This document shows, piece by piece, positions 3,650 through 35,129 of a stretch of 51,663 nucleotides of DNA; position 1 is the stretch's first letter; every line of letters starts with the position of its first letter. The notes under the pieces are model-generated. The model did no database searches and had not been told where the DNA came from. It saw only the letters and a list, made by a program, of their open reading frames with translations. Source of the DNA: Pseudomonadota bacterium (GTDB lineage: Bacteria; Pseudomonadota; Gammaproteobacteria; Burkholderiales; Chitinibacteraceae); assembly GCA_026399755.1 (NCBI GenBank), contig JAPLQI010000031.1, positions 1-51,663 on the forward strand. The letters run 5' to 3'. Position numbers and translations under genes: made by a program.

Positions 3650-3665
3650 TGTTCCACGTGAAACC
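3650..3665. promoter_or_regulatory. parS-like ParB-binding site 1, abutting the parC start codon
   Basis: TGTTCCACGTGAAACC differs from the widely conserved chromosomal parS palindrome TGTTTCACGTGAAACA at two positions (T to C in the left arm, and the last base). It ends on the base before the parC ATG at 3666, where a Shine-Dalgarno sequence would be, and none is evident. The cognate ParB is encoded at 34308-35129. ParB bound here could affect parC expression; that is inference. Confidence 0.8.
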
Positions 3666-6032
3666 ATGACTCAGCACGATATAGAACCTAATGATGCCGA
3701 CGAGTTGGAAAGCATCGCAGATCAAGGCCCGCGCCGTTTTGTTGAAGCGCAGATATCTGCTACTCCAGACGACGCCGAATCCGTACAACTAGGCTTGTAC
3801 GCAGAAAAAAGCTATCTCGAATACGCCATGAGCGTGATTAAAAGCCGCGCCTTACCCCAAGTGGAAGACGGGCAAAAACCGGTACAGCGCCGTATTCTAT
3901 TCACCATGCACGGCCTTGGCCTTGTTGCTAATGCCAAGCCGATTAAATCGGCGCGGATTGTCGGTGATGTGATGGGTAAATACCATCCGCACGGCGATCA
4001 ATCTGCTTATGACGCGCTGGTACGGATTGCCCAAGACTTCTCGCTACGCTATCCGCTGATCGATGGTCAGGGCAATTTTGGTAGCCGCGATGGCGATGGC
4101 GCTGCGGCGATGCGATATACCGAAGCCCGCTTAACGCCGATTGCCGAGCTACTGCTCAGCGAGCTAGATAAAGGCACTACCGATTTTGTGCCTAACTACG
4201 ATGGCGCATTCCAAGAGCCTTCCTTGCTGCCCGCACGCCTGCCTATGCTGCTACTCAATGGCGCATCGGGAATTGCCGTAGGAATGGCAACAGAAATTCC
4301 TGCGCACAATTTGGGTGAAGTCGCGGATGCGGCCATTGCGTTGATTAAAAAGCCGACGCTAACCACCAGCGATTTGCTTAGCTATATCCAAGGGCCAGAT
4401 TTGCCAGGTGGTGGGCAGATTATCTCGCCACGCAAGGATATTGTAACGGCCTACGAAAATGGCCGGGGCAGCTTAAAAGTTCGCGCCCGCTGGACCAAAG
4501 AAGACTTGGCCCGCGGCCAGTGGCAGATTGTGATTAATGAATTGCCACACGGCACTTCCACGCAAAAAGTACTGGAAGAGATTGAAGATTTAAGTAATCC
4601 AAAAATCAAAAAGGGCAAGAAAGCCCTAACCCAAGAGCAAATTCAAACCAAGCAACTCATCCTGTCTTTAATCGATAGAGTGAGGGATGAATCAGGCAAG
4701 GAAAACGCCGTTCGCTTAGTGATTGAGCCAAAATCATCAAGGCAAAATCCAGACGATATGATGAAGCTGCTGCTGGCGCACACCGCGTTAGAAAGTGGTT
4801 TATCCATCAATATGGTGACCATCGGTCGTGATGGCCGTCCAGGACAAAAGTCGCTGCAGCAAGTGATTGCCGAATGGATTTCTTTTCGCTTTGATACCGT
4901 CACTCGCCGCACCGAGCATCGCTTAGGGCAGGTGAATGATCGTATGCATATTTTGGAAGGTCGCTTAATTGTCTTCTTAAATATCGACGAAGTGATCCGC
5001 ATTATTCGTCATAGCGATGAGCCAAAATCGGCCTTGATCGAGGCGTTTAATTTAAGCGATCGTCAAGCCGAAGATATTTTAGAAATCCGCTTGCGCCAAT
5101 TAGCGCGCTTGGAAGGCATTAAGCTTGAACAAGAGTTGGCCGATTTGGCAAAAGAAAAAGCCGAACTTGAGCATCTTTTAGCCACGCCAGATGTGATGCA
5201 AAAGCTGATCATCAAAGAAATCGAAGCAGATAAAAAGAAGTTTGCCGATCCGCGCAGAACACTGATTGTAGAAGCAGAACGGGCCTCGCTTGAGGTCACG
5301 GTAGTGGATGAGCCTGTCACGATTATCTTGTCTGAAAAAGGCTGGATGCGTGCCCGCCAAGGCCATGCGCTCGATCTGCAAAACCTCAGTTTTAAAGACG
5401 GCGATACGCTGCTGGCCTTTATTGAATGCCGTTCTATCGACCCAATTGCGATGTTTGGTACGGATGGTCGAGTCTATAGTATTCAAGCTTCTATCATTCC
5501 TGGCGGCAGGGGCGATGGTGCGCCAGTCACGACTTTAGTCGATCTAGCACCTAAGTCACAAATTACCCAGCTACTGGCCGCCAAACCACAAGATCATGTG
5601 GTGATCGCTAATTCTAATGGCTATGGTTTTTACTGCTTATTTGAAAACTTAATGAGCCGCCAAAAAGCTGGTAAGAGCTTCCTAACGCTAGAAGAAGGCG
5701 AAACGCTGCTTAAAGTTTCTACCTTTGTTCCACGTGAAACATCGCATGTTGCTTGTCTATCCCAAAACAGCAAGCTGCATATCTTTACCTTTAGCGAGTT
5801 TAAACAGCTAACGGGCGGTGGGCGTGGTGTGATTACCATGGCTTTTGACGATAAAGACTCGCTGGCAGCCATTACGGTTTGTGATGGCCTAACGCTAAAA
5901 ATCAGCGGCACCGGTCGTGCAGGTAAAGCGATTGATTGGGTATTGAATACCAATGAAATCGCAGCCTATTTAGGTAAGCGCGCTCGTAAAGGCAAGCCTA
6001 TTCATGCTGGTTTGAAGATGCCAAGGTTTTAA
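3666..6032 (+). CDS. parC: DNA topoisomerase IV subunit A
   Basis: Type IIA topoisomerase subunit that breaks and rejoins DNA to decatenate daughter chromosomes; it works with ParE, which is not in this window. The 788-residue product has the N-terminal breakage-reunion domain (about 45-500) with the active-site Tyr151 in [10 protein letters not shown], a coiled-coil gate (about 430-520) and a shorter C-terminal beta-pinwheel, so ParC is preferred over GyrA. In the quinolone-determining segment [14 protein letters not shown] the position usually held by Ser (Ser80 in E. coli ParC) is Gln112. A parS-like site lies inside the gene at 5726-5741 and another abuts the start codon. The next gene overlaps the stop codon. 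Confidence 0.95.
5726..5741. promoter_or_regulatory. parS-like ParB-binding site 2, inside parC
   Basis: TGTTCCACGTGAAACA has one mismatch to the consensus parS palindrome. It is embedded in the parC coding sequence, where it encodes the end of Phe followed by Val-Pro-Arg-Glu-Thr. parS sites inside genes are common in other bacteria (for example within Bacillus spo0J). It lies about 2.1 kb from sites 1 and 3, giving an almost regular spacing. Confidence 0.82.
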
Positions 6033-6972: not shown

Positions 6973-7929
6973 CTATTTATCATTCACCACCGTCGTCACC
7001 AGCTTTAACAGCTCAGGCAAGATCTCTGGCAAGCGGTCTTGAATGCTACGGCCCGGTAGAAGCGGCAGGCAAAGATCGTAGCGGCCATCGTAATAGCACT
7101 CCACCCGTGGCCGCTGCGGGTCTAGCATCCAGCCCGAGTAAGGCAGCCATACCAGCATTAAATCGCGCCAACGCGGGCCAATATCTGCTCTCTCACCGAT
7201 ATGCCTGAACACCGCCCAACGCCCAGCCGGACGCTGATACTCGCCTAATAATCTAGGCAATTTAAAATGACGAGAGATGGGTACGGCTACATCGTAGCGT
7301 CGGCGCTCGGCAGGTGTCGTGGCCGGATCGCTCCAAACCAAGCCAAACCATAGCCCCGACTTGATATCAATCGTTTGGCATTGCTCTTGAAAGTCCACCA
7401 AGAGCTTCTCTAAATGAAAACCATAGTCACCGACTGCTCGCTGATAAGCCATACGCTCAGCTGGCCATTCTTCTATTTTGATGCAGGCCTCAACTTCATC
7501 CCAGCTCCAAACTCGATCAACATCGGTGCCCGCTATCGCCAAACCCGGCCGATAAGACATCGCACCTAAATTATTGGCGATCCAACAAATCGCTACCGCC
7601 CGCCCAGCACGTAAATCACTCGGCGTAAAACCAAAGCTGCGGCTAAAGGCTCGGCTAAAGGTGGCAGGAGATGAAAATCCAACTAAATCAGCCACCTGCC
7701 CAATGGATAAATGTGGCGACCATTGCAAAAGCGAAGCAGCAACTTCTAGGCGTAATTGCCATAAAAACGCCTGCGGGCTATCGCCATATTCGCTTTGAAA
7801 ACGATGTGCTAAATGCCAAGGCGAGTAATGAGTGACATCAGCTAAATCAGCCAATTGCAAAGGCGCAGCTAAGCCGCGCACCATGCGATCTATCGCTTTT
7901 TCTAAACGAAGGCAGGGAGGATTAGTCAT
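6973..7929 (-). CDS. AraC-family transcriptional regulator with GyrI-like effector domain
   Basis: 318 residues. The N-terminal 110 residues form an AraC double helix-turn-helix, with HLAHRFQSEYGDSPQAFLW followed by the second HTH block GFSSPATFSRAFSRSFGFTPSDLR. The C-terminal half (about 155-318) resembles the GyrI-like/SOUL small-molecule-binding module seen in Rob- and BmrR-type regulators. A DNA-binding domain at the N-terminus with GyrI behind it is the Rob arrangement. Targets are unknown. The ATG is immediately preceded by parS site 3, leaving no ordinary ribosome-binding site. thiD is upstream on the same strand 16 bp away, so the pair may be cotranscribed. Confidence 0.88.
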   Translation of the reverse strand: MTNPPCLRLEKAIDRMVRGLAAPLQLADLADVTHYSPWHLAHRFQSEYGDSPQAFLWQLRLEVAASLLQWSPHLSIGQVADLVGFSSPATFSRAFSRSFGFTPSDLRAGRAVAICWIANNLGAMSYRPGLAIAGTDVDRVWSWDEVEACIKIEEWPAERMAYQRAVGDYGFHLEKLLVDFQEQCQTIDIKSGLWFGLVWSDPATTPAERRRYDVAVPISRHFKLPRLLGEYQRPAGRWAVFRHIGERADIGPRWRDLMLVWLPYSGWMLDPQRPRVECYYDGRYDLCLPLLPGRSIQDRLPEILPELLKLVTTVVNDK

Positions 7930-7944
7930 GTTTCACGTGAAACA
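7929..7944. promoter_or_regulatory. Perfect parS site 3 between thiD and the AraC gene
   Basis: TGTTTCACGTGAAACA is an exact match to the chromosomal parS consensus and a perfect 16-bp palindrome. It fills the entire spacer between the thiD stop codon (7946) and the AraC-gene start codon (7927-7929, overlapping by one base). Together with the sites at 3650 and 5726 it forms a centromere-like cluster 5-9.5 kb from the DnaA boxes at 13.0-13.15 kb. Confidence 0.93.
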
Positions 7945-9024: not shown

Positions 9025-9861
9025 ATGAAAACGCTGATTAGCGTTACCGTGCTTTCAGCCTTATTACTAGGCTGTCAGCAGGTAAGCACCACAGAAACAG
9101 GTGCAACTAATGTCAACCGTAAGCAAAGTATGAGCATGTTATTGTCTGAGCAACAAGTCGACAATATGGCTAAACAGTCTTACCAAGAAACACTGAATAA
9201 AGCGCAAAGCAAAGGTGTGCTTAATAGCGATAAGGCCATGACAGCCAGAGTACGCGGCATTGCTAGTCGCATCATTCCGCAAACCAGCGTATTTCGCGCG
9301 GATGCCAGCAAATGGCAATGGGAAGTGAATGTAGAAGCTAGCCCAGAGCTGAACGCCTATTGCATGGCGGGCGGCAAGATAATGTTTTATTCCGGCATTA
9401 TCGAAAAATTAAAGCTGAACGACGATGAAATCGCCCAAATTATGGGCCATGAAATCAGCCACGCTTTAAGAGAACATAGCCGCGAGCGCATGAGCAGTGC
9501 GTATAACAAGCAATTAGCGATGCAAGGCTTGTCACTGCTGACTGGCGGAAAATACGATGGTTATATGGGTATGGCCGATGAGCTGATGCAAGTAGGCTAC
9601 TTTTTACCTAATAGCCGCGAGCATGAATCCGAAGCCGATTCCATGGGCCTAGAACTGGCAGCAAGAGCAGGATATAAGCCGCAGGCTGCTGTTAGCCTAT
9701 GGCAAAAAATGGCTGCAGCTAGCCAAGGCCAACCTGCAGAATTCCTTTCTACCCACCCTTCAAATCAAACGCGCATCCAAGATTTACAGGCCAAAATTCC
9801 AGCAGTACAAGCCTTATACGATACAGCAGCACGTAAGTATCCAACTAAAAAGGGAAATTAA
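9025..9861 (+). CDS. M48-family zinc metalloprotease, predicted lipoprotein
   Basis: 278 residues. A type II signal peptide ends in the lipobox LLGC with Cys17 as the acylated residue, so the mature protein should be membrane-anchored in the periplasm. The catalytic HEISH motif is at residues 142-146, with the third ligand in the ESEAD segment (201-205), matching the M48C LoiP/YggG-type proteases that act on misfolded envelope proteins. C-terminal THPSNQTRIQDL is also characteristic of M48. Good AAGGATCACT Shine-Dalgarno context. The stop codon overlaps the hemJ start (TAATG), suggesting coupling although the functions are unrelated. Confidence 0.92.
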   Translation: MKTLISVTVLSALLLGCQQVSTTETGATNVNRKQSMSMLLSEQQVDNMAKQSYQETLNKAQSKGVLNSDKAMTARVRGIASRIIPQTSVFRADASKWQWEVNVEASPELNAYCMAGGKIMFYSGIIEKLKLNDDEIAQIMGHEISHALREHSRERMSSAYNKQLAMQGLSLLTGGKYDGYMGMADELMQVGYFLPNSREHESEADSMGLELAARAGYKPQAAVSLWQKMAAASQGQPAEFLSTHPSNQTRIQDLQAKIPAVQALYDTAARKYPTKKGN

Positions 9862-10283
9862 TGCTCTGGGTAAAAGCACTGCATATTATTTTTATTACTA
9901 GCTGGTTTGCAGGTTTGTTTTATCTGCCTAGATTATTTGTAAACCATGCCATGAGTACCGATCACGAAACGATTGCACGCTTAAAATTGATGGAAAATAA
10001 GCTGATTCGCTTTATGACGCCCTTAGGTATTTTGGCGTTGATATTTGGTATCTGGCTTTGGTCTTACTTTGATTTTTATATGGGTGCAGGCTGGCGTTGG
10101 ATGCATGTAAAACTTACACTCGTAGCCGTTTTAATTGCCTATCACGGTTGGTGTTGGAAACTATGCAAAGATTTTGCCAACGATAGCAATACGCACAGCC
10201 ATCGCTGGTATCGTTTTTTTAACGAGATCCCTGTCTTAGTTTTAGCGGCCTGCGTTATTTTGGTGGTAGTAAAGCCTTTCTAA
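9861..10283 (+). CDS. hemJ: Protoporphyrinogen IX oxidase HemJ (CopD-like membrane protein)
   Basis: 140-residue integral membrane protein with about four transmembrane helices. The conserved His in KALHIIFITSWFAGLFYLPR and the Lys in WMHVKL match the UPF0093/HemJ family, which converts protoporphyrinogen IX to protoporphyrin IX using haem and a respiratory acceptor. The C-terminal block RWYRFFNEIPVLVL is also family-typical. hemL lies 0.7 kb downstream on the same strand, so two steps of the tetrapyrrole pathway sit together. Translationally coupled to the upstream protease gene. Confidence 0.9.
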   Translation: MLWVKALHIIFITSWFAGLFYLPRLFVNHAMSTDHETIARLKLMENKLIRFMTPLGILALIFGIWLWSYFDFYMGAGWRWMHVKLTLVAVLIAYHGWCWKLCKDFANDSNTHSHRWYRFFNEIPVLVLAACVILVVVKPF

Positions 10284-10305
10284 AATGCCTCAGGAGCAAA
10301 GAATA

Positions 10306-10767
10306 ATGGCGACAGAAATTGAACGTAAATTCCTATTAAATAGTGATGATTGGCGTAAAGAAGTGCAGCAGTCCAGCCGAATTGCTCAGGGCTATTTATC
10401 TAACGATCCTGAGCGGGTAGTGCGAGTTCGTTTGCGTGGGGCTCAGGGATTTATCACCATCAAAGGCAAAACAGCAGGGATTGAGCGTTTAGAATTTGAG
10501 TATGAAATTCCGTTTTCCGATGCTGAATCCTTATTAAAATTATGCCCAAACACACTGGATAAAACTCGTTATTTAATCGATTTTGCTGGATATACTTGGG
10601 AGATCGACGAATTTCATGGTGAGAATGCACCATTGATTATTGCTGAGTTGGAATTACCTAGTAGTGATGCGGCTTACACTAAGCCAGTATGGTTAGGTGT
10701 GGAAGTATCAAATGATCCGAGATACTTTAATAGCTATCTTTCTGAACATAGCTATTCAACTTGGTAA
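10306..10767 (+). CDS. CYTH-domain protein (triphosphate tunnel metalloenzyme family)
   Basis: 153 residues beginning MATEIERKFLL, where Glu4, Glu6 and Lys8 form the ExExK signature of CYTH/TTM proteins (inorganic triphosphatases, class IV adenylate cyclases, thiamine triphosphatase). Alternating basic and acidic strands such as RVVRVRLRGAQGFITIKGK and the C-terminal EVSNDPRYFNSYL follow the short bacterial YgiF-like form without a CHAD domain. Tripolyphosphatase activity is the most likely guess. The ATG at 10306 is chosen over an in-frame ATG at 10285 because CAGGAG lies 11 bp ahead of it. A terminator follows. Confidence 0.87.
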   Translation: MATEIERKFLLNSDDWRKEVQQSSRIAQGYLSNDPERVVRVRLRGAQGFITIKGKTAGIERLEFEYEIPFSDAESLLKLCPNTLDKTRYLIDFAGYTWEIDEFHGENAPLIIAELELPSSDAAYTKPVWLGVEVSNDPRYFNSYLSEHSYSTW

Positions 10768-10787
10768 TTGATTGAAACTAACTAAAT

Positions 10788-10815
10788 AAGCGCCTGCGAT
10801 AGGCGCTTTTTTTTT
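10788..10815 (+). terminator. Rho-independent terminator after the CYTH gene
   Basis: AAGCGCCT stem, loop GCGAT, AGGCGCTT stem, followed by a long run of T. It should end the rubredoxin/M48/hemJ/CYTH transcript before hemL. Confidence 0.9.
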
Positions 10816-10829
10816 GTTTAAAATTAAAC
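10816..10829. promoter_or_regulatory. AT-rich palindrome upstream of hemL
   Basis: GTTTAA, two bases, TTAAAC: perfect 6-bp arms directly after the terminator and about 115 bp before hemL. It could be an operator or part of the hemL promoter region; no regulator is assigned. Confidence 0.3.
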
Positions 10830-10945
10830 ATGTAGTCAGAAAATAAAAACTACGTAGCAACATAAAACAGGAAACAAGTGAGCAATGACGGTTTCTGCAA
10901 AAGAACGATGGCGCTATGATATTGCTTTCTATTGTGGATTTCGTC

Positions 10946-12226
10946 ATGAATCAAAACCAACAATTGTTTGCTGCCGCTCAAAAGCATATTCCTGGCGGCG
11001 TAAATTCGCCAGTACGCGCTTTTGGTTCTGTTGGTGGCACGCCACGTTTCTTTAAAAAGGGCCTTGGTGCCTATGTTTGGGATGTAGATGATCAACGATA
11101 TATTGATTATGTAGGTTCTTGGGGCCCGCTTATTCTTGGCCACACTCATCCAGATGTGCTTGAAGCCGTGATTGCAGCAGCTAAAAATGGCATGAGTTTT
11201 GGTGCGCCAACGGCCGCAGAAGTAGAATTAGCCGATTTAATTTGCGAAATGCTACCGTCCATCGAACAAGTTCGCCTTGTTTCAAGTGGCACCGAAGCCA
11301 CAATGAGCGCTATTCGTCTTGCTCGCGGTTTTACAGGTCGCGATAAATTAGTGAAATTTGAAGGTTGTTACCACGGTCATGCCGATAGCTTATTAGTAAA
11401 AGCGGGTTCTGGTTTATTAACTTTCGGCAATCCTTCATCAGCTGGTGTTCCAGCGTCAGTTGCCGCAGATACTTTAGTTCTACCTTATAACGATGTTACC
11501 GCGCTAGAAGCATTGTTCGCAGAAATAGGGGAACAAATCGCGGCCATTATCGTAGAACCCATCGCTGGCAATATGAATATGGTACAAGCAAGCCCTGAAT
11601 TTGTTCAAGCGATGCGTAAATTAACTGAAAATCATGGTGCAGTTTTGATTTATGACGAAGTCATGACCGGTTTTCGAGTCGATTTGGAATGTACCCAAGG
11701 TTTGCACGGCGTGAAACCTGATTTAACTTGTCTAGGTAAAGTAGTAGGTGGTGGTATGCCGCTCGCTGCTTTTGGTGGTCGTAGCGACATTATGGCTAAG
11801 TTAGCTCCTCTTGGCCCGGTCTACCAAGCGGGTACACTTTCAGGTAATCCGGTTGCAGTTGCAGCAGGATTAGCCACATTAAAGATTATTCGTGAAGACG
11901 GGTTTTTTAATAGATTGTCTATTCAAACTAAAAAACTATGTGATGGTTTAATTCAAGTTGCTAAAGAAACAAATACTATTTTTTCTGCACAGAGTGTAGG
12001 TGGTATGTTTGGTTTTTACTTTAGCGAAAATATTCCGCAATCATTTGCAGATGTTATGAATTCTGATCGTACTCGTTTTAATGCATTTTTTCATGGGATG
12101 TTAAACAAAGGAATCTATTTAGCCCCTTCTGCATTTGAAGCTGGTTTTGTTTCTGCTGCGCATTCAGATCAAGATATTTTGGATACACTTGAAGTAGTAA
12201 GAATGGTATTTTTAGAAATTAAGTAA
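10946..12226 (+). CDS. hemL: Glutamate-1-semialdehyde 2,1-aminomutase
   Basis: PLP-dependent class III aminotransferase-fold enzyme that makes 5-aminolevulinate from glutamate-1-semialdehyde, the C5 route of haem synthesis. The start [20 protein letters not shown] matches the family N-terminus, so the ATG at 10946 (426 residues) is preferred over an in-frame ATG at 10916. The PLP lysine is in [17 protein letters not shown]; the substrate loop GTLSGNPVA is present. The Shine-Dalgarno sequence is weak. The gene is followed by a good terminator and becomes AT-richer towards its 3' end, as does the following region. Confidence 0.96.
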
Positions 12227-12354: not shown

Positions 12355-12855
12355 TTACGATTTATTAATTTCTTCTTCAATTAATAATTCAATTTCTTTT
12401 ATATCTGCAACACCTACGTATTTTTTAATAATTTCGCCCTTCTTGTTAATTAAGAAGGTGCTAGGTGTTAATCCTACATTTCCGAAAGATTTTGCAATCT
12501 TGCCATCGATGTCATGTTGAATAAAAAAGGGTAGTTTTTTTTCGGTTACATAATTAGCAATATATTCAGGATTATCGTAATCCATAGCAATCGCAATCGT
12601 TTTATATTTATTGTTATTATATTTTTCTTGTAATTTAATAAGTTCAGGCATTTCTTGGATGCAACCAGTGCAACTTGTCGCCCAGAAATTAATAAGGACG
12701 ATTTGGCTTTTTAATGCAGACAGGTTTAGTTTTTGACCTTGAATATTTGTTAATTGAATATTAGGTGCTTGTTTATTAGGTGCTTGAAAAAGTAAGTATC
12801 CAGCAATACTCATAACAGTAGCGATAGCGATTAAATGTGGAAAATATTTTTTCAT
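12355..12855 (-). CDS. TlpA/ResA-like thiol:disulfide oxidoreductase, membrane-anchored
   Basis: 166 residues: one N-terminal membrane segment (LIAIATVMSIAGYLLF) and a periplasmic thioredoxin fold with the redox motif Cys-Thr-Gly-Cys in NFWATSCTGCIQEMPEL. GLTPSTFLINKKGEI contains the conserved cis-proline loop. Such proteins reduce apocytochrome c or periplasmic disulfides. The ATG at 12855 is chosen because AAGGAAC precedes it by 6-8 bp; an upstream in-frame ATG (12876) lacks this. The gene is markedly AT-rich compared with its neighbours, with many Lys/Ile/Asn codons, and it borders the candidate origin. Confidence 0.9.
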   Translation of the reverse strand: MKKYFPHLIAIATVMSIAGYLLFQAPNKQAPNIQLTNIQGQKLNLSALKSQIVLINFWATSCTGCIQEMPELIKLQEKYNNNKYKTIAIAMDYDNPEYIANYVTEKKLPFFIQHDIDGKIAKSFGNVGLTPSTFLINKKGEIIKKYVGVADIKEIELLIEEEINKS

Positions 12856-12879
12856 TTTGAGTTCCTTATCTTGCAAGTT

Positions 12880-13160
12880 GGGGATTTTAGAACATTTTTT
12901 TGAGGTTTTGGGGTGGAAAATTTATTTACACCTTTTTTTCTTTTAGTACTTCATTTAAGAAGAAAGATATAAGAACAACTAATAAGGGGAGCTGTTTTCT
13001 GTGGATAAGTCATTTTCCTTTTGTTTTTCAACGACTTAACTTATCCACAAGGCTGGGTGTGAAATCTGTTTGGCCTGTGGACAATTTGGAGATAGTTTTT
13101 TTGCTTTTGCTGCTTCAGAGGTTTTCCACAGTGCCAGTTACTTTTATCCACAGGGCAAGT
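12880..13160. other. Candidate chromosomal replication origin (DnaA-box cluster plus AT-rich stretch)
   Basis: Non-coding gap between the divergent tlpA-like and rbgA genes. Three perfect DnaA boxes TTATCCACA lie at 13000-13008 (reverse), 13041-13049 and 13144-13152, with two near boxes, TTTTCCACA at 13122-13130 (fits TTWTNCACA) and TGTGGACAA at 13076-13084 (reverse, one mismatch). The adjoining 12880-12999 is AT-rich with T and A runs, as expected of a DNA unwinding element. Only about 0.4 perfect 9-mers would be expected by chance in the whole window on both strands. dnaA is not in the window; in enterobacteria too, oriC is separate from dnaA and near mnmG. A DnaA-titration locus is the main alternative. 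Confidence 0.7.
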
Positions 13161-13193
13161 AGTTGATTTGATGGATCGTTTGATTTTTCACCG

Positions 13194-13199
13194 TATAAT
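13194..13199 (+). promoter_or_regulatory. Probable -10 element for rbgA
   Basis: TATAAT 25 bp before the ATG of rbgA. No good -35 hexamer is seen at 16-18 bp; a TTGATG 20 bp upstream is the closest. The region overlaps the right side of the DnaA-box cluster (last box ends at 13152). Confidence 0.45.
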
Positions 13200-13223
13200 G
13201 GCTCGTTTTGACGGAGGGGTTCG

Positions 13224-14129
13224 ATGGCGATCCAGTGGTTTCCAGGGCATATGAACACTGCCCGCAAGCAGGTTGCAGAGACCATGGCCAAGGTAGACTT
13301 GGTGATTGAGGTGGTTGATGCTCGCTTGCCACTGTCTAGTAGCAATCCCATGATTGAGCCGATGCGCCGCTTAAGGCAGCGTCCTGCTCTCAAGGTTTTG
13401 AATAAAGCAGATTTGGCAGATCCAAGACTCAATAAAATCTGGCTTGAATGGTTTAAATCTCAGCCAGGTACAGAAGCGGTATTGTTGGGTGAAGATAATA
13501 AAATTCAGGGTGCTAAGCTGATTCCTCAGTTGTGTCAGGCCTTAGCTCCGCACCGAGATGGTGAAGAAAAACCACTCCGTGCCATGATTCTTGGTATTCC
13601 TAACGTTGGAAAATCGACGCTGATCAATCACTTAGCTAAGCGTAAAATTGCGAAAGTAGCGGATACCCCTGGTGTGACGAAGATGCAGCAGCGGGTTGAA
13701 ACGCTGGCAGGGATGATTTTGTACGACACGCCAGGTTTGATGTGGCCTAAGGTGCAAAATGAAGATTCTGGTTATCGATTAGCAATGGCAGGATCGATTG
13801 GTCGCAATGCCTATGATGAAGTCGATGTTGCTTTGTACGCGATTGAAACTTTGATTGAACGCTATCCTCAGCTCTTGCTTGATCGCTATAAATTGAAAGA
13901 TTTATTGGGTGATGCAGAGCCACTTTTTGAGCTGATCGGGAAAAAACGCGGGGCTATGTTGTCCGGCGGGCGTATTGATACTCAAAAAACTGCGGACATG
14001 ATACTGACTGAGTTTCGTGGTGGCACATTAGGACGAATTACGCTGGAAACTCCAGATGATTTCTTAGAAATGCCAGTCTACGATCCTAATGATGAAGTGG
14101 AAACGCCGGATCCAGATTTGGAAACCTAG
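13224..14129 (+). CDS. rbgA: Ribosome biogenesis GTPase, RbgA/YlqF family
   Basis: Circularly permuted GTPase of 301 residues, thought to act in late assembly of the 50S subunit. The motif order is permuted: G4 (LNKADL, about residue 60) precedes G1 ([12 protein letters not shown], about 124-135) and G3 (DTPGLMWP). The N-terminus IQWFPGHMNTARKQ is diagnostic of YlqF/RbgA. The ATG at 13224 is preceded by ACGGAGGGG, a strong ribosome-binding site. It is the first plus-strand gene right of the candidate origin and shows strong G-over-C excess. Confidence 0.94.
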   Translation: MAIQWFPGHMNTARKQVAETMAKVDLVIEVVDARLPLSSSNPMIEPMRRLRQRPALKVLNKADLADPRLNKIWLEWFKSQPGTEAVLLGEDNKIQGAKLIPQLCQALAPHRDGEEKPLRAMILGIPNVGKSTLINHLAKRKIAKVADTPGVTKMQQRVETLAGMILYDTPGLMWPKVQNEDSGYRLAMAGSIGRNAYDEVDVALYAIETLIERYPQLLLDRYKLKDLLGDAEPLFELIGKKRGAMLSGGRIDTQKTADMILTEFRGGTLGRITLETPDDFLEMPVYDPNDEVETPDPDLET

Positions 14130-15805: not shown

Positions 15806-18355
15806 ATGAATAATTCGACCCAAGCCTCTCGGCTAGATCTTTTTGCACCGCTTTCTGGTGTTGTCGTCGCTATCGAATCGGTTCCTGATCCGGTTTTTGC
15901 TCAAAAAATGGTGGGTGATGGGATCTCAATTGATCCGATTTCCAATCAATTACTTGCACCCGTTGCGGGTAAAGTAACGCAGCTGCATTCCTCACGACAC
16001 GCCATTACGATTACAACTCCAGCTGGTGTTGAAGTTTTGATTCATATTGGCTTAGATACCGTCATGCTGCGCGGTGACGGCTTTGTGGCTAAGGTTGCGG
16101 AAGGTGCTGAAGTTAAGGTGGGTCAGCCTTTAATTGAGTTTGATGCTGATTTGGTGGCTCGAAAAGCACTGAGTTTGTTGACGCAAATCGTGATCACAAC
16201 AGGGGATAAGGTTGTTAAATATATCCCTACAATTAAGAAAGCTGTGGTGGCAGGGCAGGATATTGTCATGTCTTTAGACCTTGCAGGCGCCACCGTGGTG
16301 GGTAATGCCGTTGCAGCAGAGGCGGCGATTCAATCTGCGGCCGTGATCGTACCTAATCCAACCGGATTACATGCTCGTCCAGCTGCGGTGATTGCAAATA
16401 CAGCTAAAACATTTAAATCTGATTTAAAACTTGTTCGTGCTGGCGATGAAGCAAATGCCAAATCTGTCGTATCGATTATGGGTTTGGAAGTACAACACGG
16501 TGATTCAGTGTTTGTAAAAGCGACTGGCCCTGATGCCGCTCAAGCCGTGAAAGCCTTGGCAGAATTGATTGCGAGTGGCTCGGGAGAAGAATGCGGCGGT
16601 GTATCTTCACCTATTGCAGCAAAGCATATTGCTAAGCCACAAAAACGTCCGGCATTAAAATCGAATGACCCTAATGTATTGATGGGCGTTTCAGCGTCTC
16701 CTGGCCTTGCTGTTGGACACATTTTCCAAGTTAAGCAAGAAGTGATCGACGTCGTTGAAGCGGGTGACGTGCCTGAGCTGGAAAAACGTCGCTTAGAGAA
16801 GGCGCTAAAAGAAGCGTTTCAACAGCTAGAGACATTGAAAGGCGAAATTGCTGATCCGGCTAAGGCTGAAATTTTTTCTGCTCACCAAGAGTTGTTGTCA
16901 GATCCAGATTTACTTGATTTGGCAACCTCAGGAATCAGCCAAGGTAAGAGTGCTGGTTTTGCTTGGCGTGCTGCATTTACCAGCTATGCCGATAAACTGG
17001 CTAAGCTGAAAAATGAAGTATTAGCGGGCCGAGCCAATGATATTCGCGATATTGGTCGCCGAGTATTACGTCTGATTGCGGGCATTAAAGAAGCGGCATT
17101 TGAAGTGCCGAATGATGCCATTTTGATCGCTGAAGATTTAACCCCATCAGATACCGCCTCGCTTGATCGCAATAAAGTGCTGGGTTTCTGCACAATTGGG
17201 GGGGGCGCAACGAGCCACGTTGCTATTTTGGCCCGCTCCTTAAATATCCCAGCGATTTGCGGGATTGAAGAAGCTGCATTGCAATTGGCTAATGGCACGC
17301 CGGTGATTTTGGAAGGCAGCAAAGGCTGTTTACGCTTAAATCCTTCTTCTGAAGAAATCAGTAGCATTCGTGAGCGTCAAGTGAAGTTAGCTAAGCGTCA
17401 GGCTGAAGAATTGGAAGCTGCTTTTGAACCTGCTACGACCACCGATGGGATTTGCGTTGAAGTGGTTGCCAATATTGGTGGCCTAGAAGAAGCACAGCAA
17501 TCGGTGAAGTTGGGCGGTGAAGGCGTGGGTCTGCTGCGTAGCGAATTTTTGTACCTTGAGCGTACTGACGCGCCAACAGAAGCTGAGCAAGACAAAATTT
17601 ACAGTGATATTGCTAAATCGCTAGGCAAGGATCGTACCTTTGTGGTGCGTACTTTGGATGTGGGGGGCGATAAGCCACTGCCTTACTTGCCTATGCCTGC
17701 TGAAGAAAATCCATTCTTGGGCGTGCGCGGTGTGCGTTTATGCTTGGCCGAGCCAGAATTACTGCATACGCAAATTCGCGCTATCTTGCGTTCTGCTGAG
17801 CATTCAAAGCTGGCGATTATGTTCCCGATGATCACTTCTCTGGAAGAAGTTCGCGAAGTGAAACGTATCGTTGCCGAAGAAAAAGCAGCCTTGGGTATTA
17901 CTGCGCCAGTACAAATCGGCATTATGGTTGAAGTGCCTGCAACGGCTGTGATGGCTGAAATCTTTGCCCGCGAAGTTGATTTCTTCTCGATTGGCACGAA
18001 CGATTTAACTCAATACACGCTAGCAATGGATCGTGGCCACCCTAAGCTGGCCAAAGAAGCCGATGCCATGCACCCAGGCGTATTGCGTTTGATCGCCAAC
18101 ACGGTGAAAGGCGCGCATACCCACGGTAAATGGGTAGGCGTGTGTGGTGGCATTGCATCCGATCCTGCGGCTGTGCCACTACTTATCGGTATGGGTGTGG
18201 ATGAATTATCGGTGAGCGTGCCCGCTATCCCTGCAGTGAAAGCACTAGTGCGTAAGCTATCCAAGGCGGATTGCCAGAAATTGGCGGCTGAAGTGCTACA
18301 AATGGGTACTGTAGCCGAAGTCCGTGCTCGTTTAGCTCAGCAATTGGCTGACTAA
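15806..18355 (+). CDS. nagF: Multidomain PTS protein EIIA-HPr-Enzyme I
   Basis: 849-residue cytoplasmic fusion carrying three phosphotransfer stations. EIIA(Glc)-type domain (about 10-160) has His65 and active His80 (VLIHIGLDTVML). The HPr domain (about 178-262) has His189 in NPTGLHARPA. Enzyme I (about 290-849) has active His471 in GGGATSHVAILAR, and the C-terminal PEP-binding half contains GVCGGIASDP. The same fusion with a GlcNAc EIIBC partner is known as NagF/NagE in Pseudomonas and Xanthomonas. It starts the operon with a Cys-less EIIB and NagE; GlcNAc import fits, but glucose cannot be excluded. Confidence 0.92.
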   Translation: MNNSTQASRLDLFAPLSGVVVAIESVPDPVFAQKMVGDGISIDPISNQLLAPVAGKVTQLHSSRHAITITTPAGVEVLIHIGLDTVMLRGDGFVAKVAEGAEVKVGQPLIEFDADLVARKALSLLTQIVITTGDKVVKYIPTIKKAVVAGQDIVMSLDLAGATVVGNAVAAEAAIQSAAVIVPNPTGLHARPAAVIANTAKTFKSDLKLVRAGDEANAKSVVSIMGLEVQHGDSVFVKATGPDAAQAVKALAELIASGSGEECGGVSSPIAAKHIAKPQKRPALKSNDPNVLMGVSASPGLAVGHIFQVKQEVIDVVEAGDVPELEKRRLEKALKEAFQQLETLKGEIADPAKAEIFSAHQELLSDPDLLDLATSGISQGKSAGFAWRAAFTSYADKLAKLKNEVLAGRANDIRDIGRRVLRLIAGIKEAAFEVPNDAILIAEDLTPSDTASLDRNKVLGFCTIGGGATSHVAILARSLNIPAICGIEEAALQLANGTPVILEGSKGCLRLNPSSEEISSIRERQVKLAKRQAEELEAAFEPATTTDGICVEVVANIGGLEEAQQSVKLGGEGVGLLRSEFLYLERTDAPTEAEQDKIYSDIAKSLGKDRTFVVRTLDVGGDKPLPYLPMPAEENPFLGVRGVRLCLAEPELLHTQIRAILRSAEHSKLAIMFPMITSLEEVREVKRIVAEEKAALGITAPVQIGIMVEVPATAVMAEIFAREVDFFSIGTNDLTQYTLAMDRGHPKLAKEADAMHPGVLRLIANTVKGAHTHGKWVGVCGGIASDPAAVPLLIGMGVDELSVSVPAIPAVKALVRKLSKADCQKLAAEVLQMGTVAEVRARLAQQLAD

Positions 18356-24903: not shown

Positions 24904-26064
24904 ATGCCTGCTTTTTGTCACCATGACCTGACGTTGCTGAACCCAGCGTTTGATTCGCCACTCGTGGATGTAGTGACAGAACTGGAGCATTTGCGACGTT
25001 TACAACTGGGTGGCACTACCCCTGCTCTGGTATTTTTTCAGCTTAAGTCTATTTTCCATATGCTGGAGAGTTTGGGCTCAGCGCGTATTGAAGGAAATCA
25101 CACTACGCTGGCTGACTATGTTGAAAGCCGTCTTGAGGTGCAGCCCGCAACTCCTTCCGACCAACTGCGTGAAATGGCCAATATCGAAGAGGCCATGACC
25201 TACATCGAAGATCATTTTGAGTCTGGGCAAAACGTGACCGAACACTTTGTTCGTGAGTTGCATGCGATTGCTGTTTGTGATCTCAAACGCGAGGGAGACG
25301 ATACCCCTGGAGCATACCGAAATGAGCCACGTATCATTTCTCAATCCGATCACCTACCACCTGAAGCCCTATTGGTTTCCCAGTACATGAGTGAGTTGGT
25401 TGCATTTATTAACCGTGCTGATCCGCCGAAGTATGACCTCATCAAAGTGGCGCTGGCTCACCATCGCTTTGCTTGGATACACCCTTTTGGCAACGGGAAT
25501 GGGCGAGTGGTGCGGTTGCTGACTTATACCCTACTCATCAAATACGGCTTCAATGTCAAAACGGGCGGGCGAGTACTTAACCCGACTGCCATCTTTTGCA
25601 ATGACCGCGACCATTATTACACCATGCTAGGCTGCGCTGACACGGGCACACGTGATGGGATGGAGAAATGGTGCGTCTATGTACTAGAGGGCATGCTGAG
25701 TGAATTGCAAAAAGTGGATAGGCTGACAGATGCTCATTATCTCAACGACCGTATCTTGATTCCAGCACTACATTACGCCCGTGAGCGTGAGCTACTGACT
25801 CAAATGGAAGAGCAGGTGCTTTTAGCAACCGCTCGAGCAGGGGTTGTCAAGGCGAGTGACTTGAAGGGCGCTATGCTGGGAATGACCGATGCTCGGCGCA
25901 CATATCAAATTCGAAAACTGGTTGAGAGCCGTATGTTGGTTCCTATTTATGAAGGGGCACGTCAGTATACAGTGGGCTTTAGCAACAACTTTTTGATCCG
26001 AGGTGTAATTCAAGCGCTTTCGAAAGAGGGATTTATTCCCGAAGCCCTGAATGGATCAAGATAG
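24904..26064 (+). CDS. Fic-domain protein with N-terminal inhibitory helix and C-terminal wHTH
   Basis: 386 residues. An N-terminal inhibitory motif of class II Fic proteins, (S/T)xxxE(G/N), is at residues 59-64 (SARIEG). The Fic catalytic loop is [12 protein letters not shown] at 193-204, where His193 is the base and the Arg residues hold the triphosphate; the position normally Asp or Glu for Mg2+ is Asn197. The C-terminal about 100 residues look like a winged helix ([17 protein letters not shown]), as in many transcription-linked Fic proteins. Expected activity is AMP transfer to a protein target. No antitoxin gene is adjacent. GGAG lies 8 bp before the ATG. Confidence 0.9.
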
Positions 26065-33525: not shown

Positions 33526-34311
33526 ATGAAAATTCTGGCAATTGCTAATCAAAAAGGCGGCGTAGGTAAGACCACTACAGCTGTCAATTTGGCTGCAAGT
33601 CTGGCGCATCTTGGCAGAAAAGTGCTGCTGGTTGATCTGGACCCGCAGGGCAATGCCACGATGGGCGTTGGAATCGATAAGGCTAAATTAGCTAGCTCGG
33701 TTTACAACCTTTTACTTGGTGCAACACCGATTCAAGAAATTATTCAGCGCTCAGAATCCGCTGGCATTGATGTGCTGCCAGCCAATCGTAATTTGGCTGG
33801 GGCAGAAGTTGAGCTGGTGAATCAAGAACACAGAGAATCACGGCTTAAAAATGCTTTGGCTTTAGTTGCAGATCAATATGATTACATTATTTTAGATTGC
33901 CCACCTGCGCTAACTTTATTAACCTTGAATGGCTTAGTGGCGGCTGATGCAGTTCTTATCCCGATGCAGTGTGAATATTACGCGCTGGAGGGTTTATCTG
34001 ACTTGGTAAATACGCTTAAACGCGTTAAACAGTCGATGAATCGTCATATCGAGATCGAAGGACTGCTGCGCACCATGTTTGATCCACGTTCCACCCTTGC
34101 ACAACAAGTGTCAGATCAATTAATTAAACATTACACCAGCAAACTGTACCACACTGTCATACCACGTAATATTCGCTTGGCCGAAGCACCATCCTATGGC
34201 CGCCCAATCTTGTCCTACGACAAAAACTCCAAAGGCGCACTGGCGTATCTTCAACTTGCTGAAGAGTTGCTGGCCCGTCACAACCTGCTAGAAGAGACTC
34301 CCACAGCATGA
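33526..34311 (+). CDS. parA: Chromosome-partitioning ATPase ParA (Soj)
   Basis: 261-residue deviant Walker-A ATPase that moves ParB-parS complexes on the nucleoid. The Walker A is [17 protein letters not shown] at residues 10-26, preceded by IANQ; Walker A' [13 protein letters not shown] and Walker [14 protein letters not shown] follow. It lacks the N-terminal HTH of plasmid type Ia ParA, so it is the chromosomal Soj type. AAAGG lies about 8 bp before the ATG. parB overlaps its stop by four bases. Confidence 0.96.
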
Positions 34312-35129
34312 AAATGAAAGGACTTGGACGCGGTTTAGATGCCTTGATGGGAGATAGTCAGGATTCTTTGCAAAATCTGCCGATTCATTCTTTGCAGCCA
34401 GGTAAATATCAGCCTCGCTTGCAAATGGATGAAACGGCTTTAGATGAGCTTACTGCATCGATTCAGGCTCAAGGTTTAATGCAGCCTGTATTGGTACGGC
34501 CGATTGGGCTGGATAAGTACGAAATTATCGCTGGTGAGCGCCGTTGGCGTGCATCGATTAAAGCGGGTTTGGTAGAAATTCCTGCTCTAGTTCGTGAAAT
34601 TGCCGATGAAGCCGCTTTGGCAATGGCTTTAATCGAAAATATCCAGCGTGAAAATTTAAATCCGCTAGAAGAAGCGCTGGGTATATCGCGCTTAGTAGAA
34701 GAATTTGGCATGACGCATGAAGCGGCCGCTTTGGCGGTTGGCAAATCCAGAGCCAGTGTTTCAAACTTATTAAGACTATTAAGTTTATCTGAGCCACTGC
34801 GGAAGATGCTAATGGCCGATCAGCTCAGTATGGGGCATGCTCGCGCCTTGCTGCCTTTGGATGATTTGCTGCAATTAGATACAGCGCGTATGGTGATTTT
34901 GAAAGGCTTATCGGTGAGAGAAACCGAGGCTTTGGTGAAAAAACAACAAGGAGTCGCACCAGTAAAATCGCTTAAACCTGCGGATCCCTTGTTCTCTCGT
35001 TTGGAAGAGGAAGTATCAGCAAGGCTAGGCAGTAAAGTGTCAATTAAGGCGGGAAAGCAGGGTAATGGTCGAATTACCATTGAGTATAGTAGTGTCGAGC
35101 AGTTAAATAGTCTGCTTGGCAAGATGTAA
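34308..35129 (+). CDS. parB: Chromosome-partitioning CTPase/DNA-binding protein ParB
   Basis: 273 residues. Starts [15 protein letters not shown], then the ParB/Srx CTP-binding fold with [19 protein letters not shown] and GERRWRAS, the [14 protein letters not shown] motif, the parS-reading HTH ([21 protein letters not shown]) and the C-terminal dimerisation domain. It should bind the three parS sites at 3650, 5726 and 7929 in this window and spread from them. Coupled to parA. The atpI gene begins 164 bp downstream from a separate promoter. Confidence 0.96.

Follow-up and report, generated by a model that had tools for sequence, protein, structure and literature searches.

Among the closest described systems is oriC of Escherichia coli, which lies between mioC and mnmG and in which an AT-rich element (TGTGGATAA) stands to the left of the DnaA box R1, set off from it by a spacer, with an IHF site to the right of R1; the labels R1 and IHF are those used in a passage of PMC10380432, and part of PMC6669920 describes this origin as also lying apart from dnaA. 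DnaA boxes occur as well in sites that control DnaA: in the relevant passage of PMC10380432, datA consists of boxes with one IHF site, and DARS2 of boxes with IHF and Fis sites. A further point of comparison is the basal unwinding system of Bacillus subtilis, for which the DnaA-trio was taken as defined in passages of PMC8287927 and PMC6669920. For Laribacter hongkongensis, a predicted oriC with eight boxes is given in a passage of PMC3135505. No paper on the origin of Chitinibacteraceae was among the matches listed in the open-licence literature, and a prediction in DoriC may exist.

The DNA analysed here is a stretch of 51,663 nucleotides (the window) from a strain of Iodobacter, a genus placed by taxonomy look-up in Chitinibacteraceae, Neisseriales, Betaproteobacteria. 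The YlqF protein encoded in it is 98% identical to that of Iodobacter sp. BJB302, followed by that of Chitiniphilus eburneus at 71%. An initial annotation had proposed a candidate oriC between divergent genes, here identified as ylqF and a redoxin gene for which the name TlpA is our own label, and the analysis reported below makes it very probable, as judged from sequence, that the region upstream of ylqF is the chromosomal oriC of this strain. A motif scan recovered all five of the DnaA boxes then claimed, three perfect and two with one mismatch, at the same positions and on the same strands within this gap (Table 1). The gap itself runs from 12877 to 13223 by the longest-ORF call, but is more likely to begin at 12856, for an ATG read backwards at 12855-12853 is provided with a ribosome-binding site. 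The AT-rich region said to adjoin the boxes was likewise found, and by composition it is the kind of element that accompanies the boxes of a DnaA-type origin, the GC content of the whole gap being 0.37.

Table 1. Features of the proposed origin and its surroundings (positions in the window unless a contig is named; an empty strand cell means that none was assigned)
Feature	Position	Strand	Basis
Intergenic region with proposed oriC, between tlpA-like gene and ylqF	12856..13223		profile R1 match 12941-13190, 170.6 bits (profile made from 24 sequences, this one included)
AT-rich stretch, proposed DNA unwinding element	12880..12990		GC 0.29
A-rich block TAAGAACAACTAATAAGG, conserved, 12 bp to the left of R1-like box	12970..12987	+	family alignments
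DnaA box 1 (R1-like), perfect TTATCCACA	13000..13008	-	at most one mismatch in 23/24 family sequences
IHF-like site 1 TTTCAACGACTTA, one mismatch to WATCAANNNNTTR	13026..13038	+	family alignment
DnaA box 2, perfect TTATCCACA	13041..13049	+	at most one mismatch in 11/24 family sequences
DnaA box 3, one mismatch TTGTCCACA	13076..13084	-	at most one mismatch in 20/24 family sequences
DnaA box 4, one mismatch TTTTCCACA	13122..13130	+	at most one mismatch in 17/24 family sequences
DnaA box 5, perfect TTATCCACA, faces box 1	13144..13152	+	at most one mismatch in 16/24 family sequences
IHF-like site 2 AATCAACTACTTG, exact consensus match	13156..13168	-	motif scan
TATAAT, probable -10 of ylqF promoter	13194..13199	+	ATAAT or ATACT in 25/25 aligned family sequences
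ylqF/rbgA, ribosome-biogenesis GTPase	13224..14129	+	TIGR03596, 318 bits
TlpA-like redoxin, longest ORF, start probably 12855	12355..12876	-	PF08534, PF00578
parS, perfect palindrome TGTTTCACGTGAAACA	7929..7944		motif scan
parS-like site inside parC	5726..5741		motif scan
parS-like site just upstream of parC	3650..3665		motif scan
parA and parB	33526..35129	+	parA NF041546 (E 2.6e-32, yet under the curated cut-off), parB TIGR00180
Second profile matches right after ylqF, genus g10	G036:C16:117738-117970, G037:C1:2382851-2383089, G038:C1:2761747-2761986		ylqF flanked by two copies

The clustering of the boxes stands out at the scale of both the window and the genome. When one mismatch is allowed, the window contains 25 boxes, whereas 100 shuffled versions gave 10.6 ± 3.4 and never more than 19; it has four perfect boxes, where about 0.86 would be expected from the density in the genome (82 in 4,946,219 bases on 145 contigs) or 0.24 from that of a reversed control pattern (23 in the genome); the earlier estimate of about 0.4 by chance is in line with these figures. 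Nowhere in the genome except in the cluster at 13000-13152 do three perfect boxes fall within 600 bp; the next closest pair, on contig C12, is spaced at 558 bp, and an equally tight triplet arose in only 4 of 20,000 simulations in which 82 boxes were placed at random.

The layout of the gap resembles that of E. coli oriC, with which it shares the AT-rich element to the left of R1, the spacer and the IHF site to the right of R1; in E. coli, too, the last TTATCCACA box faces R1. In a search of the 10 kb around E. coli oriC with a profile of the family sequences (profile R1, described below), run with filters off, the best match was oriC itself, though a weak one at 10.9 bits (E 0.0013 for those 10 kb); its alignment needs one inserted base and extends over the spacer, R1 and the IHF site. 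The right end of oriC came second, at 9.7 bits and in reverse only. As a comparison of sequences, this match shows the same layout but is no demonstration of common descent. There are also clear differences: E. coli oriC has other neighbours, in place of the tlpA-like gene and ylqF; the gap contains one GATC against 11 in E. coli oriC; and the block nearest R1 is T-rich on the other strand. As for the B. subtilis system, the A-rich block, 14 bp away from a DnaA box, carries NAN triplets, and at least three such triplets within 16 bp of a box are found in 18 of the 24 related family sequences and in 87 of 200 shuffles, a comparison that establishes no excess over chance.

Conservation was examined in 43 genomes from 11 genera of the family, which is taken from its named relatives to be Chitinibacteraceae. 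A first alignment contained 25 family sequences; the second contained 24, genome G027 having been dropped from it, as its region lacks boxes. From the left, the conserved order is A-rich block, R1-like box, IHF-like site, boxes 3 to 5, a second IHF-like block and the -10 element of ylqF, so that by sequence likeness the parts follow one another as in E. coli oriC, where the unwinding element and R1 are followed by an IHF site and further boxes. The case for the two IHF-like sites rests on their conserved position, since a match in the window alone is not significant (five occurrences of the motif against 2.9 expected). At the first site, the CA-N5-TT core is present in 24 of 24 aligned family sequences, of which 21 have the full motif when one mismatch is allowed; the second is present with at most two mismatches in 22 of 24, an alignment gap being scored as one. 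The 24 aligned sequences were used to build profile R1, which is based on sequence only. It matches all 43 family genomes, and in 42 of them the best match lies directly upstream of ylqF; among the 19 genomes that took no part in building the profile, the corresponding number is 18. The exception is G027 (680 contigs, 6% contamination), in which there is no box cluster upstream of ylqF.

The gene dnaA was said to be absent from the window, and it does indeed sit elsewhere, on contig C20, where its neighbours, as read from the sequence, are dnaN to one side and, to the other, rpmH and rnpA. This locus has one perfect box upstream of dnaA and no profile R1 match, so the module does not lie next to dnaA as it would in a dnaA-adjacent oriC. 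The same holds across the family: profile R1 matches none of 17 dnaA loci (flanks of up to 1.5 kb each, with three of the loci starting where their contig starts), and all three control dnaA loci from other families are matched. The search for dnaA covered 16 relatives, and in every one the gene shares a contig with ylqF; in three of these the dnaA match begins close to the contig start, at base 22 in two and at base 107 in the third. The distance between the two genes, measured in 15 relatives, is 27-412 kb, with dnaA on either side; for G024 it would be about 0.4 Mb on the assumption of a circular contig. Four genus mates were examined for both genes, and their origin locus is 217-240 kb away from dnaA. 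A second protein of the Iodobacter genome has a weak DnaA-family match (40.8 bits; locus L002, G000:C22:33036-33659); it is possibly Hda.

GC skew was sampled in eight single-contig relatives. A minimum at dnaA instead of at the boxes had been named beforehand as an outcome that would tell against the candidate; what was found is a change of sign at the ylqF locus, clear in four of the eight (G031, G028, G009 and G022), weak in three (G041, G014 and G017) and ambiguous in G037. In G031 (4,726,850 bases), the signs of 40 of 40 stretches for raw skew, and of 39 of 40 for third-position skew, fit one origin and one terminus: skew is negative from 2.54 Mb until 12 kb before ylqF (stretch centres), then positive from ylqF through dnaA and on to 1.19 Mb, the terminus falling between 1.19 and 1.41 Mb. 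The ylqF-linked cluster of this genome is at 3.952 Mb, and dnaA, at 4.192 Mb, is inside the positive arm. In G028, G009 and G022, ten of ten stretches each agree in both raw and third-position skew; in G041 one downstream stretch is zero and the rest agree with small values. The records of G014 and G017 begin at dnaA, and four of five and six of seven stretches, respectively, between dnaA and ylqF have negative skew, the sign that an origin at ylqF would give; beyond ylqF the skew is near zero and of mixed sign. In G037 the skew is weak, dnaA is 27 kb away and the minimum lies 7.6 kb to the right of ylqF.

The strand composition thus switches at the locus in relatives, while the switch in the window itself is at 8.8 kb: cumulative GC skew falls until 8769 and then rises, with its minimum 4.2 kb to the left of the boxes. 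Together with minima 4.4-4.8 kb to the left of ylqF in G031, G028 and G009, this might be taken to mean that replication starts near 8.8 kb and that the box cluster is merely its neighbour. Such an arrangement appears very improbable, given that a single one-mismatch box (8490) is found nearby and that the minimum is only 1.3 kb from ylqF in G022 and 1.8 kb in G014. Overall, minima lie 1.3-4.8 kb to the left of ylqF in seven of eight genomes (the window included, G017 left out), G037 being the exception, and the offset would come from the co-oriented genes there (9025-12226 in the window), which can shift a minimum.

Beyond the family, a first scan of the order for two same-strand boxes 25-55 bp apart gave 16 of 250 genomes; this pattern cannot fit the spacing in the window, and profile R1 was substituted for it. 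With the profile, 94 of 150 genomes match at E 0.01 or better, five of them family members, and 80 of the 89 others were analysed, the nine weakest being left out. In 57 of these 80 genomes, representing 29 of 38 families, the 500 bp that follow the 3' end of dnaA contain a match, with E values down to 2.3e-19; for 53 genomes it is the best one, and these 53 matches all have the orientation opposite to dnaA. The same profile therefore picks out the presumed dnaA-dnaN oriC of other families and, in Chitinibacteraceae, a module upstream of ylqF. By their listed coordinates, no profile R1 match adjoins ylqF in the 49 of the 80 non-family genomes in which that gene was found. In 23 of the 80, a profile R1 match beside dnaA is absent; their matches elsewhere may be relocated origins or spurious hits. 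The initial annotation was thus right to set the origin apart from dnaA; its view that this would be noteworthy for a betaproteobacterium may need tempering, since, going by these 23 genomes, the situation may be less exceptional.

These comparisons also bear on two other roles for the boxes. The cluster overlaps the promoter region of ylqF, whose -10 element is conserved, and DnaA might act there on transcription, of either ylqF or the tlpA-like gene. Among named ylqF loci from public genomes (the best 80 of 597), a box cluster was found only in the two from family members; of the 78 others, 72 lack a box altogether and six carry a single one (at most one mismatch, 600 bp upstream, three loci being shorter), so that none has more than one. 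Transcriptional control would moreover leave the skew switch unexplained, and the same layout is matched beside dnaA. As the sole function of the boxes it is hardly credible, though it could be an additional one. Alternatively, the cluster might bind or reset DnaA in the manner of E. coli datA or DARS, with the origin elsewhere nearby. Its ingredients are partly common to such sites, those of datA and DARS2 being similar in the passage of PMC10380432 concerned; however, the AT-rich element adjoins R1, the skew of relatives switches at the ylqF locus, outside the family the profile selects the region 3' of dnaA, and the genome has no second triplet of perfect boxes within 600 bp. We consider a DnaA-control site at this position highly unlikely.

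Second copies of the module occur in several genera. In genus g10 a second profile match follows ylqF directly in three of three genomes, with E values of 1.6e-27 to 7.1e-22 (Table 1), and in genus g5 a second module lies about 1.4 kb further upstream in two of two (G011:C3:268202-268409 and G012:C11:527162-527367). G026 has a second module beside hisD, 50 kb away (E 1.7e-28; G026:C16:92979-93220, in L263), and in G027, of the same genus, the only good module is the one beside hisD (G027:C110:19935-20168, in L264). All seven genomes of genus g8 (G018-G024) contain a weaker, partial second module, 110-136 kb from ylqF in the three that have both on one contig, which could be a DnaA-control site; one example, G022:C1:242680-242848 (in L268), adjoins a cheD gene. 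Three further profile matches in the family are weak, with E above 0.006. In other families, G151 (C23), G150 (C35), G062 and G089 have a module 3' of dnaA together with a better-scoring one elsewhere, 5.6 kb (G150) or 24.6 kb (G151) from the 3' end of dnaA and on another contig in G062 and G089. Skew in genomes with two copies is weak, and leans to the ylqF copy in G026 and to the dnaA copy in G151. The neighbours, examined through 20 proteins encoded beside modules, are mixed, with 7 of 10 and 3 of 10 having no family at the thresholds used.

Since 29 of the 38 other matching families have the module at dnaA, the most economical history, read from the distribution of matches, is probably that oriC left dnaA-dnaN for ylqF in an ancestor common to the family. 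The second copies (after ylqF, beside hisD, or at dnaA and elsewhere) lend themselves to a fuller proposal, in which the module moved as a unit from dnaA-dnaN to the ylqF promoter before Chitinibacteraceae diversified, origins in the order move by copying, and intermediates of relocation may be visible; we put the chances of this evenly for and against. Some of the likeness between modules could reflect shared binding sites and not copying.

Of the partition sites and genes that had been reported near the locus, parS-like sites, parA, parB, mnmG, rsmG and atpB are present, mnmG at 17.6 kb from the origin locus. With at most one mismatch, six parS-like sites are found in the genome, three of them in the window and 5-9 kb from the box cluster; a reversed control gave none. 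Other genes in the window include one for a fused EIIA, HPr and enzyme I phosphotransferase protein (15806-18355), followed by a glucose IIBC gene, and one for a protein with weak Fic-type family matches, under cut-offs (24904-26064).

By analogy with E. coli, initiation would begin with the binding of DnaA-ATP to the R1-like box and the other boxes; IHF would bend the DNA between boxes, the AT-rich element to the left of R1 would open, and DnaB helicase would be loaded, so that two forks could leave. ParB bound to the parS sites would then segregate the copies. Opening to the left of R1, bending by IHF and loading of DnaB are carried over from E. coli, in part from a passage in PMC10380432.

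Against placing oriC at the boxes may be counted the offset of the skew minimum, the relatives with weak or ambiguous skew, the exception of G027, and the presence of box 2 in only 11 of 24 family sequences. The proposal made at the outset is supported by the unique cluster, conservation in the family, the skew switch in relatives and the nearby parS sites. The region is thus predicted to be an ordinary DnaA-type oriC in a place specific to Chitinibacteraceae, upstream of ylqF. The origin of this betaproteobacterial family would then sit where records begun at dnaA would miss it, and would have kept to the same gene in 42 of 43 genomes although its distance from dnaA varies between 27 and 412 kb in the 15 relatives measured. 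The same module at dnaA in many families, together with the second copies, offers material for studying how origins move.
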